Assembly: GCA_017450125.1 (NCBI GenBank)
Contig: JAFSWZ010000010.1
Location: 124,001-188,000, forward strand
Reading direction: 5' to 3'
DNA: 64,000 nucleotides
DNA from: Synergistaceae bacterium
GTDB taxonomy: Bacteria; Synergistota; Synergistia; Synergistales; Aminobacteriaceae
The position numbers and the translations under genes were made by a program. Within the stretch, counting starts at the first letter, position 1. Each line of letters opens with the position of its first letter. Positions 18,362 through 54,279 of this stretch are shown here, piece after piece. The notes under the pieces are model-generated. The model did not search any database. It was not told the DNA's origin and worked only from the letters and a program-made list of their open reading frames with translations.

Positions 18362-18396
18362 TCCCCCTTTGCCAGAGACGGCGGAGGGGGATTTTT
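18362..18396. terminator. Bidirectional terminator between dnaK and the glycan operon
   Basis: TCCCCC (18362-18367) pairs with GGGGGA (18386-18391), followed by TTTTT on the plus strand. On the minus strand the same hairpin is followed by a looser T-rich stretch. It separates the two convergent operons and touches the stop codon of the HAD gene. Confidence 0.8.
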
Positions 18397-18787
18397 AGTG
18401 CTGTCTGGACTGCGCGCATATAGCCTCGAGTTCTTCGGGCGAATGCTTCAGGAACTCGTCAGGCCGTATAGTCCTGTCGTCAACGTAGAACCCTTTGTGT
18501 CCCGGCCAGACTTTGCCGTATATTATCCCGTCATAGGGTATCTGCCACTTGTCCAGCCACTCCAGCAGTATCTTGGCCGTGTGCTTGTTGATTAACCCCA
18601 TGTCTCCCTTGTAGGTGTTCATGTTCCTCGAGGTCAGAAGGATAATCCGTGCTCCGTTGGCCTTGTAGTACCTCAGTTTCTCCAGCATGTCGGGATACGG
18701 TACTAAGTCTTCGTAACGTTCATCCTTAGTCTTTATCGGGCATAATGTCCCGTCAATGTCGAACACAAAAGTGTATTCGCTGTACAA
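18395..18787 (-). CDS. Small HAD-family phosphatase (capsule biosynthesis type)
   Basis: A 130-residue HAD-fold protein with motif I FDIDGTL (residues 9-15), motif II LLTSRN (about 50-55), a conserved Lys near GKVWPGHKG and motif IV FYVDDRTI near residue 105. Such short, cap-less enzymes occur in capsule and lipooligosaccharide clusters, where they dephosphorylate a sugar phosphate intermediate. It is the last gene of the seven-gene glycan operon, two bases after the preceding gene. The substrate is not known. Confidence 0.83.
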   Translation of the reverse strand: MYSEYTFVFDIDGTLCPIKTKDERYEDLVPYPDMLEKLRYYKANGARIILLTSRNMNTYKGDMGLINKHTAKILLEWLDKWQIPYDGIIYGKVWPGHKGFYVDDRTIRPDEFLKHSPEELEAICAQSRQH

Positions 18788-18789
18788 GA

Positions 18790-20424
18790 TTAATCACTCC
18801 TTATGTCTGTTGTGCAGGCCAGAAGCTCTATGCCTGTTCCGAGCATCGCCGCCTGATGCCTTAGGCTCTCACCGTGAAGCGGTATCATGCTCAGGAACAG
18901 CAGAGCCTCTATCAGCTTTACTCTCTTCATGTCCGGCGAGAAGACTTCCTTGAACAGCTCCAGCATGTCGAAATCTCTTGCCCTTCCGTGAACCTCGTAA
19001 TTCACAGAAGCATTCGCGAGGTCGTATTCTGCGCTGAACATGTCCTTGATGATGAAGTCGTATTTCCCGTCTATGCTGTGAAGTATTTTTGCGAGGTCAT
19101 AATCCGGGTCGCCGTATATGTCGTAGCTCCCGAAGCTGCCTCTCGGGTCTATCAGCTTGATGAACTGCAGGTTAGGGTCAATCATTATGTTGGTGAAGCA
19201 CAAGTCCCCGTGAATTATCGTGAACTCATCGATTCCGTAAAGAACCTCAGGGACGCACTTCCTCAGGGCATCGCATATCCCGTCAAGCGGAAGGTATCTT
19301 TGTCCGTTCACCGTGATATTCTTCGTGAAGAAGGCGGAGAAGTTCTCGTTCTTGCGCAGTGCGTCAATCCTCTGCAGAGTCTTGGCCAAGTACATATCCT
19401 CGAGCGATGAGCGTATGTCGTCTCCTCTTGCCGTGTAACGCTTGAAGTCGTCAATCACCGAGCGTATCCGGCTGAATATGTCCTTCCACTGCCTGAAGCC
19501 CATCTCTCCGTACAGGAACAGTTCATGAACAGTGTGGTACGCGTAATACTCCATCGAGGCATAAGGCCTTGTGTAGTGCGTCGAGAAGCTGAAGATTCGC
19601 GGGTGCGTGTATTCCAGATCGGACGGCAGCTTGAGATACCACTTTATCTCCTGAATGAATTTCTCCCTGTTCTCGCTGGTCTTGGTGAGGATGCCTCTCG
19701 TCCTGTCCATAGCTATATGGTTGAACTCACGCGCACTCACCTCTAGACGCGAGCTGAAGTACTTGTCGGCGTGGCCTATGTCGAACCAGCTGGAAGCCTT
19801 CACCGCTCTCATCGGGCAGGAAGCGTTGTAGTCCCTCAGTGCCTGATAGAACGTGCTGACTGACGCATCGGGCTCGACGAATGCGCGTTCAAGGCACGTC
19901 CTCAGAACGTCAGGCCTCGTTATGCGGAAGACTCCCACGAACAGCCTGCCTTTTGCGGCGGAAGTTCCGGGCTTCTTGTCGGTTATGCTCGTGAAGAGTC
20001 CGTTCTCCCCTTCCGACATCGTGAAGAACGTCCACGCTTCGGACAGGTAGTCTTCGCTGTACCAGAAGCAGTCCTCTCCGCCGCCGCTTACTTCGTCCGC
20101 CAGAATGGTATCCGCAAAGTTGATTATCGCAGTGCCGTTCACGCCTTCAAGAGACTTGTACACCGTCCAGCCCAGATCCCTGAGCTCCGGCAGAGTCTCT
20201 ACGGTTACCCTGTCTCCGTACGGCGCAAGAGCCTTGATGACCTCTCCGGCGTTCTCGCAGCACATCACCTTGATGCTTCCGCAGATGCCTGCGTATTTCT
20301 CGTAAAGGTAGTCGAACACTATGCGCTGGCTGACGGGGTAAATTACCGCAGGGATTTTGCCGAGAGTCTGAAGCGGTTCGGGAACAATCTTTGCAGAAGG
20401 AACAAGGAGCGTACAAGCAGTCAT
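18790..20424 (-). CDS. Fusion of a nucleotidyltransferase-like domain and an aminoglycoside-phosphotransferase-type kinase
   Basis: About 544 residues. The first 220 or so resemble a sugar nucleotidyltransferase fold (GTAIINFADTIL near residue 100, then WFDIGHADKYFSS near 215) but lack the usual Gly-rich GxGxR signature. The C-terminal 300 form a small-molecule kinase fold with the catalytic loop HGDLCFTNIMID near residue 420 and IDPRGSFGSYD near 440. I chose ATG 20424, with AGGAGTG upstream, over GTG 20433. It likely acts on a phosphorylated sugar for the surface glycan made by this operon. A CACAT repeat just upstream may alter its translational coupling. Confidence 0.78.
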   Translation of the reverse strand: MTACTLLVPSAKIVPEPLQTLGKIPAVIYPVSQRIVFDYLYEKYAGICGSIKVMCCENAGEVIKALAPYGDRVTVETLPELRDLGWTVYKSLEGVNGTAIINFADTILADEVSGGGEDCFWYSEDYLSEAWTFFTMSEGENGLFTSITDKKPGTSAAKGRLFVGVFRITRPDVLRTCLERAFVEPDASVSTFYQALRDYNASCPMRAVKASSWFDIGHADKYFSSRLEVSAREFNHIAMDRTRGILTKTSENREKFIQEIKWYLKLPSDLEYTHPRIFSFSTHYTRPYASMEYYAYHTVHELFLYGEMGFRQWKDIFSRIRSVIDDFKRYTARGDDIRSSLEDMYLAKTLQRIDALRKNENFSAFFTKNITVNGQRYLPLDGICDALRKCVPEVLYGIDEFTIIHGDLCFTNIMIDPNLQFIKLIDPRGSFGSYDIYGDPDYDLAKILHSIDGKYDFIIKDMFSAEYDLANASVNYEVHGRARDFDMLELFKEVFSPDMKRVKLIEALLFLSMIPLHGESLRHQAAMLGTGIELLACTTDIRSD

Positions 20425-20452
20425 GCCGCACACTCCTGCAAATTGTCATGAG

Positions 20453-21778
20453 TTATGGATGTGATGTGATGTGATGTGATGTGAAATTATACATTTTTTC
20501 TCTCATTGCGTCAACTTCTTCCGTCATATTTACAGTGAAATACTGCGCTCCGCTTCTTCTTGCGGCCTCAAGCCCCGTCTCCGAGTCCTCGAAGATTATG
20601 CACTCTTCCGGCGAAGCACCAAAATACTGCATGGCCTTGAGGTAGCCTTCAGGGTCAGGCTTTGAGTGCGCAATATCCTCATGAGCCAGCACAAGGTCAA
20701 AGAAGTTCTCCAGCCCGAAAGCCCGCAGAATGTCCTGCGTGTTCTCGCGTGAAGCTGTCGTAACCAGCGCGAGACTGCACTCTCCTCTGCACATTCCCAG
20801 AAGAGCCAGAAGCCCGGTGTTTGGCTTGGCCAGCGTGAGATATTTCCTGTACAGAGCTTTCTTTCTGCTGTGAATCATCTTCATGGCCTCGCTGCTGATG
20901 CCGGGTACGATTTCCGGGAGAAAATCCGTGTAGTGCCTGCCGTTGCAGTGCGCACGGAAATACTCATAGTCCAGCCCGCGTTCAAGAGCCTCGCTGTATG
21001 CCGCGCAGTTGACTCCTGCTGTGTCGAAGAGAGTACCGTCAAGGTCTGCAATGATGAGCCTGACGGAAGCAGGGAGATGTCCCCGCCGTAATTTCTGCCA
21101 CGCTGTCTGGTCTGCCCATTCCTCGAAGGCCTCTGCTTTGCTGCAGCTGAACACGAAATCCCTGCGCCCGACAAGGTAGGAGATTATGTGGCTGACGTAG
21201 AGCCTTCCTGCGGGATAATCCGGGTCTGACAGCCTGACGAATGCACTCACAAAATCTTCTGCGTCCCTGAAGCTGTACATTCCCGCAGAGATTACGTCAG
21301 AACGAAGGCGTTTCTCGGCGATGTCGCACACGTTGTCCTGCTCATTGAGGACAATGAAGCTCTTGCTCCTGAGGTTGGCGACGGGAATATCCGTCTGCAT
21401 GAGGTCGAGCCCGGCTATTGCGTTGCCCTCGATAGGAGAGCTCAGGGCTATTCTGCTGTGGGAGTCTTTGACGGCGATCCCGCCTGAGATTCCGGCATAA
21501 CGTATCGTCCTGCACACTGTATCCGCCGCCCCTGAAGTCTTCTCCGAAAGCACAACAACTTCTGCGCTGGGTACGCTCTGTGCTATTGCGCTGGAAACAG
21601 AGAATTTCTCCTCCATGTCCGCAGTAACAGCGTAGATTATCCGGCCGTAGCTTTCCGGGAATATCCCTGACAGCAACTTTGCGGCAAGAATCGTTCCGTC
21701 CTCAGGATGCCTGTTCAGGATCAGAGGCAGGCCGTCAATGCGTTCACCGCCTGCACAGGGAATTATCAGCGTCTTCAT
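20453..21778 (-). CDS. Fusion of a nucleotidyltransferase-like domain and a HAD phosphatase (repeat at 3' end)
   Basis: A 441-residue protein. Residues 1-215 look like a degenerate sugar nucleotidyltransferase (LIIPCAGGERIDGLPL at the start and KDSHSRI where a DxD metal site might be). Residues about 235-430 are a HAD phosphatase of the beta-phosphoglucomutase-like type with IADLDGTLFDTAG, VTTASREN, KPDPEGYLKA and IFEDSETGLEAA. The last ten codons lie in five CACAT units (20459-20483). It starts 35 bases inside the kinase gene upstream. In the present repeat state it stops 29 bases before the next ATG. With one unit fewer it would end in an ATGA overlap with that ATG. Confidence 0.78.
   Translation of the reverse strand: MKTLIIPCAGGERIDGLPLILNRHPEDGTILAAKLLSGIFPESYGRIIYAVTADMEEKFSVSSAIAQSVPSAEVVVLSEKTSGAADTVCRTIRYAGISGGIAVKDSHSRIALSSPIEGNAIAGLDLMQTDIPVANLRSKSFIVLNEQDNVCDIAEKRLRSDVISAGMYSFRDAEDFVSAFVRLSDPDYPAGRLYVSHIISYLVGRRDFVFSCSKAEAFEEWADQTAWQKLRRGHLPASVRLIIADLDGTLFDTAGVNCAAYSEALERGLDYEYFRAHCNGRHYTDFLPEIVPGISSEAMKMIHSRKKALYRKYLTLAKPNTGLLALLGMCRGECSLALVTTASRENTQDILRAFGLENFFDLVLAHEDIAHSKPDPEGYLKAMQYFGASPEECIIFEDSETGLEAARRSGAQYFTVNMTEEVDAMREKMYNFTSHHITSHP
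20459..20483 (-). repeat. Pentanucleotide repeat, five CACAT units (ATGTG on plus strand)
   Basis: Five perfect tandem copies inside the last codons of the nucleotidyltransferase-HAD fusion gene. Five-base units shift the frame when copy number changes, so this is a candidate slipped-strand locus. Confidence 0.93.
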
Positions 21779-22613
21779 GAGTGCGTGCTATCATGCCCGT
21801 AACTGTGGCAGTCTTTGCGTCCAGAAAATCCAGCGTAGGCTTGTCGTCAGTGTAGGGGTATATCCTCAGGAGCTTCAGGAGCAGCGCGTAATACACCTCG
21901 ACGACAACGTCATCTCCTGCGGTCTCCGCGATGATGTCCGTCATTATGTCCCGGAAAATCATCAGGTGTATCACCGTGTTGATGTCCTGAACCTGCCTGC
22001 GGTATGACCACATTGCGTAAACGTCCTGAAGGAGCGTCGCGGCATCCATTATCCAGCAGTCGTAGAACGAGTCCAGAAAGTCGATGAGGTACAGCCTGCC
22101 GTCCTTTACGATGATGTTCTCGAGGGTCAAATCTCCATGACAGAAGCCGGGCGTGAACTTGTTCCACTTGTGCCCCGACAATACAGCAAATGCTTCTGAG
22201 ACTGCCGGGCTTCCTGAGCCTGCAAGTTCTTCTTCGAGAGAACGTATCTTGCGCGAGAATACCTGCTGGGGGTCGCCGCTGGTTTCTGCCGTGCCGGTGT
22301 TCATGCTGAGCATAAGGGCTCTGACTATGCTGCGGATGCTGCAGGCCTGTATAGTCTTCATGTATTCTGCCAGAGTGATGCCGCTGATGTATTCCATGTC
22401 GAAATAGTACAGCCCTTCGGACGTGAATCCCGCAGAGTACACCGCCGGTGCAGAAAGATATTCGCTTCTGAAAGCAGACTGCTTCCGAGCCTGAGCCTCA
22501 AGCCGTGCGTTGTAGCCCGTGCTCCGCGAAACTTTCCTGACGAACACCCGGCCGTTGTCTTCCGCAAGAATTATCCTGCACCCGGAATGTCCCTCAAGCT
22601 CCCTGAAGTGCAT
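21744..22613 (-). CDS. Phosphotransferase (aminoglycoside/choline kinase fold)
   Basis: A 289-residue kinase-fold protein. It carries VFVRKVSRS near residue 25 (nucleotide-binding lysine region), EYISGITLAEYM near 75, the catalytic loop CHGDLTLENIIV near 160 and the metal-binding IDFLDSFYD near 178. It should phosphorylate a small molecule such as a sugar or amino alcohol. It is one of two kinase modules in the operon, the other being the C-terminal half of the fusion at 18790-20424. Its end overlaps the next gene by 35 bases and it follows the nucleotidyltransferase by five. Confidence 0.82.
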   Translation of the reverse strand: MHFRELEGHSGCRIILAEDNGRVFVRKVSRSTGYNARLEAQARKQSAFRSEYLSAPAVYSAGFTSEGLYYFDMEYISGITLAEYMKTIQACSIRSIVRALMLSMNTGTAETSGDPQQVFSRKIRSLEEELAGSGSPAVSEAFAVLSGHKWNKFTPGFCHGDLTLENIIVKDGRLYLIDFLDSFYDCWIMDAATLLQDVYAMWSYRRQVQDINTVIHLMIFRDIMTDIIAETAGDDVVVEVYYALLLKLLRIYPYTDDKPTLDFLDAKTATVTGMIARTHEDADNSLCRR

Positions 22614-22618
22614 TTACC

Positions 22619-23332
22619 CTAAGCCTCCGTGAAAAGTTCGGAGTCCAGAGCGAGCCTGTAGCCCTCAGGAGTCCCGAAGTCTATATGGTGTTCTGCTTTG
22701 AAGACTCCGACGTTCAGCCCCCTGCGGCACATGATGTTGTAGAGGCCGCTCATGAAGCATTCGTTGTACGGGCAGCTGTTCACGTACTCTGCGGCCAAGT
22801 CCCGGAACAGCCCTGCACTCCTGAATATGTATGCTCCGCAGATCGCGCTGGTGCTTACTGCCTGCTTCTCGACTGTGCCGGTTACCCTGCCTTCCGCATC
22901 GTACATGACGTAGCTGAATCTCGGGTCTGAGGACGTGAACGTCAGCAGAGCTCCGTCATACTCACCTGCTTGTGCAAGCTCAGGGCAGGTGAACATGTGG
23001 TCGCAGTCGTTGAAGAGTACGGGCATGTCATCATCAATGTCCTTTGCGCCTTCGAGGCAGGTGAAGACCGGGCCGGGCAGGACTTCGGGAATGACGGTGA
23101 TTCCTGCATCGGGGAAATATTTGCGTATCTCGTCAATGATGGCGAACTTCTCCGCGTGTTCCTTAAGCACCACGAACCTGACATCAGCCGCATAATCCAT
23201 GACGGACATTGCGGCCCACCAGAAGAAGGGCTTTCCGTGAAGGGGGATTAACGGCTTAGGGACGGTGAAGCCGGATTCGCTGAAGCGCGAGCCTGCTCCG
23301 GCCATAGGCATAATCAGGTGAAGTCTGCTCAT
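22619..23332 (-). CDS. Sugar nucleotidyltransferase
   Basis: A 237-residue nucleotidyltransferase with an intact signature: LIMPMAGAGSRFSESGFTVPKPLIPLHGKPF (residues 6-36, split by the conserved Lys), FNDCDHMF near 108 as the metal site and DFGTPEGY near 222. It couples a sugar phosphate to a nucleoside triphosphate, making the activated sugar for the operon's glycan. ATG 23332 overlaps the epimerase stop (ATGA), which decided the start over a longer frame. Confidence 0.87.
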   Translation of the reverse strand: MSRLHLIMPMAGAGSRFSESGFTVPKPLIPLHGKPFFWWAAMSVMDYAADVRFVVLKEHAEKFAIIDEIRKYFPDAGITVIPEVLPGPVFTCLEGAKDIDDDMPVLFNDCDHMFTCPELAQAGEYDGALLTFTSSDPRFSYVMYDAEGRVTGTVEKQAVSTSAICGAYIFRSAGLFRDLAAEYVNSCPYNECFMSGLYNIMCRRGLNVGVFKAEHHIDFGTPEGYRLALDSELFTEA

Positions 23333-24366
23333 CTTTGCTCCATCCCCGACAAAAGACTGCATGTGTACTCAATCACTGCTGCCAGCCCCTCCTCCATCGA
23401 TACGCGAGGACTCCAGCCGTATTTTTCGCGGGCATGAGTGTTGTCGCAGAGCGAATACTTGTTGATTTCGTGGTGCAGTATCTCATCCTTGATCCTGTAT
23501 CTGCCCTCATAGAGAGCGGGGTACTTCTCCCAATAGTGCCTGTCATCTGCATAAGTTATGCCCCCCCCCCCGTACGCAGTTTTACGCACAAGTCTGTAGG
23601 CGATGCTGAACATCTCATTAACGGAGTAATTCACGCCGGAAGACGCGTTTACGCAGTCGAAGCCCCTGCATTCACGCACAGCCCAAGCTAAATCCGTGAG
23701 GTCATCAACATACACGTAATCCCTGCGCTGGTTGCCGTCGCTGTGAAACACCGGCGTACGGTTGTAGTACAGCTCGCGTATCATGTAGGCGACAAAGGGA
23801 GGCTGGGTTCTCAGGCAGTCGATGTGCGGGCCGTATACGTTCGAGAAGCGCAGGCACACTATATTCATCCCATAGGTGTCGCAGAAGGACTGCGCAAAAC
23901 GTTCGGCACAATATTTTGTGTTCGGGTAAATCAATGTAGGGAGCACAGAGAAGCCTGCTTCTGTTACGGGGAATCTGGTTTCGTTCTCGTAGATGGCATT
24001 GGTGCTTGCCTGAATGATTGTCCTGACACCGTATTTGCGGGCTGCCTCGCAGATGTTCACGAAGCCGGAGACATTTACGCTTATCGCTTCGGCAGGGTCT
24101 GCCTGGCAGTCAGGAAGCGGGGCAATCCCTGCGATGTTGTAGGCGTAATCGATGTCGTTGTCGCGGAAAATCGACGCTATGCCTTCTTTGTCGCGAATAT
24201 CCATCCTGATGATCTCCGGCGTGAAATCGTGATCTGGGAAAATCAGATTGTCAGGTTTGCCGTAGGAGAAGTTGTCGACAAGCACCAGACTGATGCCGGT
24301 CTTCCAGAGTTTGTACGCCAGCTGTGAACCGATGAAGCCGGCCGCGCCGGTTATGAGAGCCTTCAT
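23329..24366 (-). CDS. NAD-dependent epimerase/dehydratase containing an 11-G tract
   Basis: A 345-residue extended short-chain dehydrogenase with TGAAGFIGSQLAY (residues 6-18), IIQASTNAIYE near 125 and the active-site pair in YPNTKYCAE near 151. RRDYVYVDDLTDLAWAV near 220 is also family-typical. It probably epimerises or oxidises/reduces a nucleotide sugar. Codons for four consecutive glycines near residue 270 are an uninterrupted run of 11 G (23561-23571 as C on the plus strand). In this sequence the frame is open (ON); gain or loss of one G would truncate it. ATGA overlaps join it to both neighbours. Confidence 0.9.
   Translation of the reverse strand: MKALITGAAGFIGSQLAYKLWKTGISLVLVDNFSYGKPDNLIFPDHDFTPEIIRMDIRDKEGIASIFRDNDIDYAYNIAGIAPLPDCQADPAEAISVNVSGFVNICEAARKYGVRTIIQASTNAIYENETRFPVTEAGFSVLPTLIYPNTKYCAERFAQSFCDTYGMNIVCLRFSNVYGPHIDCLRTQPPFVAYMIRELYYNRTPVFHSDGNQRRDYVYVDDLTDLAWAVRECRGFDCVNASSGVNYSVNEMFSIAYRLVRKTAYGGGGITYADDRHYWEKYPALYEGRYRIKDEILHHEINKYSLCDNTHAREKYGWSPRVSMEEGLAAVIEYTCSLLSGMEQR
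23561..23571 (-). repeat. Homopolymeric 11-G tract in the epimerase coding sequence
   Basis: Eleven consecutive C on the plus strand, the longest homopolymer I saw in the window, in the middle of a conserved coding region. Such tracts are classic slipped-strand contingency sites in Campylobacter, Helicobacter and Neisseria. Confidence 0.95.
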
Positions 24367-25436
24367 GCTGTCTCACCTGCCTGCCTCACCGTGTCGATGA
24401 TGTACCTTGCGACGACTTCAGGTGCCCACTTTCTGTTGAAGCAGTCGACGATTTTTGCCGGGTCAGTCTCGGGAAGGGACATCACGTCGCGTTCGAACTG
24501 TGCCCAGTCTACATCCTCCATCCGTTCGTAGCCCATCTTGACAGTCTCGAAGACCTCGCACTCGTCGAAGGGCAGATACCACCTCACGACGAGCTTGTCG
24601 GTAACTATCGCTGTGCCGACCATGAAGCTCTCTATGAACCTGCTGGGGATGCTCATCCTGTAGCCGGAGACGTTGAAGTTGTACTGGAAGCTGGAGATGT
24701 AACGGCAGAAATCCTTTAGAGGCACGATGAGTTCTGCGTTTGTCCTAATTCCGCTGTCTGCGTTCGAAGTGCTGATGATTCTTGCGTCAGCTTCAGCTCC
24801 TATGCCGGAGAGGTATTCTGCAATTCTTGCGCGCTTCTCGTTAGGGTGCGAGACCTGTTCCGCGTAATAACCCATTATGTCGCGCTCCCAATCATAATCA
24901 GGATGAGTTACATTCTTTTCTGGAGCAGGCCCCTGCGCGTTGCCGAAGTAGCACATGAACTTTTTGGACTTTCTGAGATTCCGGCCTTGCAGGTAATTGC
25001 TGTAACCTCCTTTGAGGAGAGCATAGCTCATTCCCCGCGAAAGAGAGCGCGGCCCCTGCATCAGCGGGAATATCTTGCGGATGTACTGCCCTAAATCTGC
25101 TATAAAGCATCTTTCGCCTCTGTCTGTAAGTCTCTTCAGGGAATTGTCAACGTGTTTATGATCTGACCACGGAATCCTTATGCTGTCGGTTAATGCGAAG
25201 GAGTCTTCATCAAGGATGGAAGGGCAGTTGACCTTGAAGTATGCATCGCACGTATTCAGCTTCTCTTCATCAAACAGGTAAGGCGCGTCAGCACTGTCAA
25301 CGCTGAAAGTTTTTCTGCTGCCGTCCTCAAAGAGGATGTACCCGTCCATGTTGTAGCTGTCAGGTATAAATATCTTGCGCAGCTTGTTTATGCCTCTTAC
25401 AGGAATTGAGAACAGAAGCCTGTTCATCAGAGGCAT
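24363..25436 (-). CDS. Putative glycosyltransferase (exostosin-like), apparently phase-OFF at its 5' end
   Basis: From the first in-frame ATG at 25436 the frame gives 357 residues. The C-terminal part has NFNVSGYRMSIPSRFIE and FMVGTAIVTDKL, resembling exostosin-like or GT-B glycosyltransferases. The frame stays open to 25610 and that extra part looks genuinely coding: it reads KPKVVITSLGRVNYFEWF, a plausible glycosyltransferase N-terminus. It contains no ATG, GTG or TTG before a TGA at 25611-25613, because the five CACAG units at 25581-25605 put it out of frame with two upstream ATG codons (25624 and 25614). A minus-strand TATAAT at 25671-25676 supports transcription from further upstream. 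First gene of the operon. Confidence 0.75.
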   Translation of the reverse strand: MPLMNRLLFSIPVRGINKLRKIFIPDSYNMDGYILFEDGSRKTFSVDSADAPYLFDEEKLNTCDAYFKVNCPSILDEDSFALTDSIRIPWSDHKHVDNSLKRLTDRGERCFIADLGQYIRKIFPLMQGPRSLSRGMSYALLKGGYSNYLQGRNLRKSKKFMCYFGNAQGPAPEKNVTHPDYDWERDIMGYYAEQVSHPNEKRARIAEYLSGIGAEADARIISTSNADSGIRTNAELIVPLKDFCRYISSFQYNFNVSGYRMSIPSRFIESFMVGTAIVTDKLVVRWYLPFDECEVFETVKMGYERMEDVDWAQFERDVMSLPETDPAKIVDCFNRKWAPEVVARYIIDTVRQAGETA

Positions 25437-25580
25437 ATCAAATCCAAGCGATATTTCTCCGGCTTCTTGAAGCTGATAGAGCCCCAGCAGAAACCACTCG
25501 AAGTAATTTACTCTGCCGAGTGATGTAATAACTACTTTCGGTTTGCGGGATTTTGCGGTAGAATTTAGGCGAGTCTCAGG

Positions 25581-25605
25581 CTGTGCTGTGCTGTGCTGTG
25601 CTGTG
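25581..25605 (-). repeat. Pentanucleotide repeat, five CACAG units (CTGTG on plus strand)
   Basis: Five perfect tandem units within the 5' coding region of the glycosyltransferase gene, between the candidate start codons and the conserved N-terminus. Four or seven units would join ATG 25624 to the gene frame; three or six would join ATG 25614; five joins neither. Confidence 0.95.
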
Positions 25606-25639
25606 AGGAATCATACAAGCTCATAGCTTACACGTCAAG

Positions 25640-54020: not shown

Positions 54021-54279
54021 CTGTCAGTCCCTGCCTTTCACGGAAGCAGACAGGACACGAGCCTGACAGGGTGATTTTAGAGCAAAAGAGTCAACGCCGA
54101 ACGCCGAACGCCGAATTTTACACGACCTTTCATTGAGTGTCAATCCTTTCACTAATACTATTGCCGCAGCTTCGAACTGCTACATTGTAACATGGCGCGG
54201 GCGAAAATTTTTTGTGCCTCCTGAAATTGTTTGAGTGTATCATATACAGATTATTTTGCTCAGGAGGAAGTATCACATC
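54021..54279. promoter_or_regulatory. Intergenic region with a heptamer repeat and the flavoprotein promoter
   Basis: Three copies of AACGCCG (54093-54113) lie about 75 bases upstream of the GT-D gene. On the plus strand TTGAGT (54133-54138), 17 bases and TACTAT (54156-54161) form a promoter for the flavoprotein gene, leaving a leader of about 110 bases that ends in CAGGAGGAAG. No small gene is evident. Confidence 0.55.
54093..54113. repeat. Heptanucleotide repeat, three AACGCCG units
   Basis: Three perfect tandem heptamers in the intergenic region between two divergent genes. Copy-number change would alter promoter spacing, not a reading frame. Confidence 0.85.

Follow-up and report, generated by a model that had tools for sequence, protein, structure and literature searches.

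The window analysed here is a 64,000-nucleotide stretch of a Synergistaceae contig, whose minus strand carries an operon that includes a gene for a nucleotide-sugar epimerase/dehydratase of the extended SDR type, with a run of eleven guanines inside it (Table 1). The GxxGxxG and YxxxK signatures of the epimerase domain were found, and G7, G10, G13, Y147, and K151 do not vary among 29 sequences; as to the substrate, no NCBIfam equivalog scored above its cut-off. The gene set of the operon, together with the capsule phosphatase further along, would fit the building of a surface polysaccharide. The epimerase homologs came from unrelated bacteria, e.g., Leptotrichia, Lachnospiraceae, and Gemmiger (54–72% identity). 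A protein search of 24 genomes of the genus found no ortholog (best match 35%), and at the DNA level 42 genus-mates yielded only fragments of the operon, in genomes G053 and G023. Taken together, these distributions suggest that the operon was probably acquired.

Table 1. Features in and around the epimerase operon (window coordinates)
Feature	Coordinates	Strand	Basis or remark
EcbF/BcbF-like capsule phosphatase	18395..18787	-	TIGR01689 1.5e-36, under its curated cut-off
Gene 3' of (ACATC)5, no Pfam match	18790..20433	-	Related DNA in G053 and G023
HAD-hydrolase protein of the operon, 3' end overlapping (ACATC)5	20453..21778	-	PF13419 1.6e-25
(ACATC)5 array	20458..20482	-	3' end of HAD gene
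Predicted promoter TTGACG-N17-TATAAT before (ACATC)5, inside HAD gene	20486..20514	-	11/12 consensus positions
APH/choline-kinase-like phosphotransferase, same operon	21744..22613	-	PF01636 2.5e-11
Nucleotidyltransferase-like gene, same operon	22619..23362	-	PF12804 6e-07
Extended-SDR nucleotide-sugar epimerase/dehydratase (345 aa; frame open with G11)	23329..24366	-	PF01370 6.9e-47
G11 tract (C11 on plus strand) inside epimerase gene	23561..23571	-	Direct reading, G10/G12 truncation, absence in 46 homologs
Motif copy TGCGTAAAACTGCGTAC, G strand, immediately upstream of the tract	23572..23588	-	Matrix score 9.44
First operon gene, without family match	24363..25436	-	Open frame extends upstream through (ACAGC)5
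(ACAGC)5 array at predicted transcription start of the operon	25580..25604	-
Predicted promoter TTGACG-N17-TATGAT before (ACAGC)5	25610..25638	-	10/12 consensus positions

The tract is uninterrupted and lies exactly where the initial annotation had placed it, and it is indeed the longest homopolymer in the window, being the sole G/C run of at least seven nucleotides, with no A/T run of at least eight. The G/C runs in the window comprised 50 of length 5, four of length 6, none of lengths 7–10, and one of 11, and a first-order Markov model predicted 0.009 G/C runs of at least 11 in 64 kb, so the tract is far beyond chance. The frame is open at G11 (345 amino acids) and closes early at G10 (269 amino acids) and G12 (274 amino acids), in agreement with the truncation near residue 270 that had been proposed; in silico, the in-frame lengths are G8, G11, and G14. 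The 269- and 274-amino-acid forms lack invariant positions such as Y278, W279, G288, W318, and P320. The tract had been described as lying within an otherwise conserved enzyme, but its four glycines fall outside the conserved part and are missing in all 46 homologs, which therefore offer no place for the synonymous interruptions that the initial annotation had named as a refutation. At this site, the window protein reads AYGGGGIT where homologs have four residues, i.e., four extra residues and a net insertion of 12 bp, and none of the 46 aligned homologs (54–72% identical) had a G run there. In the structure model (pLDDT 88.6), the tract falls in a lower-confidence loop between helix 249–261 and the next strand.

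Of the two pentanucleotide repeats that had been assigned to the operon, (ACAGC)5 does head it, whereas (ACATC)5 lies at the 3' terminus of the HAD gene, beside an internal promoter-like sequence. Both arrays, and 15 others listed from genus-mates, start 1–5 nt after a near-consensus TTGACA-N16–18-TATAAT (10–12 of 12 positions) and straddle the predicted transcription start. Arrays of (ACATC)n or (ACAGC)n with 4–14 copies recur throughout the genus (loci L130–L152). No usual start codon was found for the frame of the first operon gene that runs through (ACAGC)5 (window 25436–25624), and the ATG at 25624 joins the frame of the conserved N-terminus only at four or seven ACAGC copies. Simple ON/OFF switching of (ACAGC)5 through this ATG is weakened as an explanation, because the ATG falls between the -35 and -10 elements of the near-consensus promoter. 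A relative in G053 (L139) also has no obvious start. The window further contains an (AACGCCG)3 heptanucleotide repeat at 54093–54113, and a heptamer array of another unit occurs at L107.

The G11 tract has many counterparts in the same genome. We counted 36 G/C runs of 10–14 nucleotides in its 2.16 Mb, compared with approximately 1.4 expected, and these were distributed as 7, 14, 8, 5, and 2 tracts of 10, 11, 12, 13, and 14 nucleotides, respectively, with the proviso that each species is represented by one assembly and that short-read assemblies may misstate the tract length by one. A/T runs of at least 10 numbered just four. Tracts of at least 10 Gs were present in 42 of 43 genomes of the genus, with up to 58 per genome, and other genera of the order had 0–12 per genome. 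The tract genes in this genome mostly encode capsule or glycan enzymes and surface proteins. They comprise glycosyltransferases (among them a tandem GT2 array), Caps_synth proteins, pyruvyl transferases, a Wzy-like protein, a UDP-sugar dehydrogenase, FkbM and other methyltransferases, Asn-synthase-like, radical-SAM, and KAS III proteins, large FG-GAP surface proteins, and a pilin-like protein. Among the 63 coding tracts of the sampled genus genomes that had clear bounds, 24 were in frame and 39 were out of frame, when coding or intergenic location and ON or OFF state were set by open-frame lengths rather than by curated annotation; this ratio is close to 1:2, the value to be expected if tract length drifts freely modulo 3. 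At L108 (1659–6623), three of the tandem GT2 glycosyltransferases have G11–G13 near the 3' end, and the tracts in this array probably switch the C-termini. The array is followed by a Wzy-like gene that likewise contains a tract.

Some intergenic tracts form promoter spacers, reading TTGACA-N-C(n)-N-TATAAT on the C strand, and a -35 element adjoins the tract in 27.5% of intergenic tracts, against a background of 5%. The length of a tract inside such a spacer would tune the strength of the promoter, and promoter-spacer tracts are known in Neisseria. At L102, L121, L159, L176, L178, L262, L296, and L317, a C10–12 run, or in one case T12, lies between the -35 and -10 elements; the layout of the T12 spacer matches that of the C-tract spacers.

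Immediately upstream of the tracts, as read on their G strand, we found a common DNA motif, approximately TRCGTAAWTTACGNAY-G(n), which is short and palindromic. Gibbs sampling recovered it with 9.7 bits here and 10.0 bits in the other genomes, whereas downstream flanks and ordinary G6–8 runs gave 6.1–6.3 bits. Motif copies ended exactly at the tract in 19 of 35 cases in this genome; the motif positions and tract classes derive from 139 fetched tracts of nine unevenly sampled genomes, a subset of those in the genus. The scoring matrix was trained on 137 flanks, with the window and L124 loci left out, and the window copy, scored with its own locus thus excluded, exceeded the 99% point of the null distribution (8.50), whereas the homologs had a mean of 1.8 and a maximum of 7.8. 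The same threshold was exceeded at 58% of the tracts in this genome and at 40–80% of those in other genomes of the genus, fractions that are partly in-sample because most of the scored tracts also belong to the training set, compared with 5% of downstream flanks. About 40% of the tracts fall below the threshold. The motif is sharp at the coding tracts of this genome and at intergenic tracts, and at the coding tracts of other genomes it is weaker (7.2 bits) and less fixed in position. Furthermore, over the six codons that precede the tract, AAA was used for 8 of 8 lysines (21% elsewhere in the same genes) and CGT for 11 of 17 arginines (16% elsewhere in the same genes). The presence of the motif at intergenic tracts, together with this skew in lysine and arginine codons, indicates that it is a DNA-level feature and overrides codon usage.

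The motif was not found at the tracts of outgroup genera. Meanwhile, the G10 tracts (L215, L225, and L235) of G108, a genome from a different family in the order, seem to be flanked by another palindrome-like sequence, GTTAG..GC.AAC, as though the motif–tract arrangement had more than one origin. In the FAD-oxidoreductase family (L124), the four orthologs with a tract scored 7.6–10.2, whereas of the seven scored orthologs without one, five scored -5.0 to 2.5 and two scored 6.5 and 7.1. In the radical-SAM family, two tract-lacking orthologs also lacked the motif, and one had the motif with GGAGGGG only. Among these orthologs, the presence of the motif largely tracks that of the tract. Within this genome, 10 of the 17 motif matches with zero or one mismatch were at poly-G tracts and one was at the T12 promoter spacer, so we rejected the idea that the motif is a general genomic repeat; at up to two mismatches, there were 124 matches, compared with 57 for a reversed control. 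A stem–loop was rejected because the half-sites do not covary (the outer pair was complementary in 18 of 74 cases, compared with 23.8 in shuffles), and the motif is therefore not a base-paired stem. Nor is it an ordinary promoter: we discarded a sigma70 promoter for the coding tracts, given that a -35 element occurred at 3.4% and 4.6% of them (on the two strands) against a background of 4.5%. A viral carrier was not supported either, as no viral contig matched the motif with its tract, the tract of the window, or the promoter of the pentanucleotide arrays.

Slippage-driven phase variation is very probably the best reading of the G11 tract, which would then be a contingency tract in a set of similar tracts with a common motif. 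The suggestion in the initial annotation that the tract is hypermutable has strong, if indirect, support in the 36 tracts of the genome, their occurrence across the genus, their location in surface-glycan genes, and the 24 to 39 division of frames, all of which are properties of assembled sequences. Slipped-strand mispairing at replication would add Gs to the tract or remove them. With 11 (or 8 or 14) Gs, the gene would be ON and yield the full-length nucleotide-sugar epimerase; with 10 or 12, it would be OFF, with a stop at 269–274 amino acids and the loss of the invariant C-terminal positions. Switching of the epimerase would toggle one step of surface glycan synthesis. We take the tract to vary in cells, a glycan to be what is switched, and the motif to act in cis, and all three points are inferred. 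Campylobacter jejuni is not known to have canonical mismatch repair. Here, MutS1 is present in the genome, and the loss of MutS as the cause of the tracts is not supported; slippage would therefore need to escape repair.

How the motif might contribute is less certain. It may, in cis, seed or destabilise the G-run, for example if a bound protein stalls replication or excludes mismatch repair, and our preferred guess is such a protein-bound element. Its most explicit form is a dedicated cis element, in which a protein of the genus reads TRCGTAAWTTACG and locally favours the formation or slippage of the neighbouring G-run; we put this forward tentatively, as a possibility that falls somewhat short of an even chance. 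If true, it would amount to programmed, addressable hypermutation in a bacterium that keeps MutS, as opposed to passive slippage at chance tracts.

The motif and the tract could instead have arrived jointly as a small copied patch, by micro-insertion or gene conversion, with the motif as a passenger without function, a scenario that we consider unlikely but that deserves weight. The motif and tract together take the place of several codons in the epimerase, in a pair of SDR paralogs, and in the radical-SAM family, and the radical-SAM ortholog of G044 carries the motif beside just GGAGGGG. In the FAD-oxidoreductase family, however, the motif overlaps coding sequence that is homologous (YEIL), and much of the motif is already present in an ortholog without the tract, which resembles remodelling in place; moreover, viral contigs hold no copies. 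It is quite improbable that the tract encodes a stable, G-rich linker, that is, a fixed, non-varying Gly4 loop of the enzyme. The assembled gene is in frame and the tract is modelled within a loop, but its GGG codons are pure and uninterrupted, the homologs have no conserved glycines, and dozens of similar tracts exist, most of them out of frame. Equally doubtful is a cryptic promoter or start site, with transcription through the G-run driving the instability, loosely as at the Neisseria pilE G4. In pilE of Neisseria gonorrhoeae, a guanine quadruplex drives localised variation through recombination and a transcribed promoter. The intergenic tracts do include promoter spacers with a similarly placed TATAAT, and TAAWTT occurs within the motif on either strand, but -35 elements at coding tracts stay at the background level. 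Finally, a sequencing or assembly artefact, in which poly-G from two-colour sequencing chemistry or homopolymer error inflates ordinary short G runs, is very improbable: some tracts do lie at contig ends (e.g., C23:1-13) and short-read lengths may be one off, but the tracts have a specific 5' motif, recur at the same sites in independent assemblies of different species, are nearly missing from related genera, and fall in genes of one functional class.

Phase variation thus remains our reading, and it can be set beside known systems. Judged by titles and abstracts, no literature on SSR phase variation in Synergistetes/Synergistota was found, and no earlier description of a shared motif beside phase-variation tracts was found in the literature searched, which makes the motif–tract association the new point. 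The tracts resemble the poly-G contingency loci of Campylobacter jejuni (PMC8355987, PMC8437040) in that many surface-glycan genes carry G tracts, one-base changes switch the frame, and both intergenic and intragenic tracts occur, but they differ in belonging to another lineage, in their common 5' motif, and in the presence of MutS1. They share with the homopolymeric tracts of Helicobacter canadensis and Neisseria (PMC2823697, PMC3786947) length-based ON/OFF or C-terminal switching (here probably in the GT2 array), whereas a shared flanking motif such as we describe was not found reported for those tracts in the literature searched. Unlike pilE of Neisseria gonorrhoeae, the coding tracts have no promoter and there is no sign of recombination here, but both systems would share a cis element, placed beside the G-run or formed by it, as the driver of localised variation. 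Work on phase variation has so far drawn mostly on Neisseria, Haemophilus, Helicobacter, and Campylobacter, and our reading, if true, adds a genus whose genomes each carry dozens of phase-variable surface-glycan genes. If tract instability depends on the motif, localised hypermutation would gain an address label and a handle on the placement of contingency loci, together with a direct route to asking how tracts arise in genes that formerly had none.
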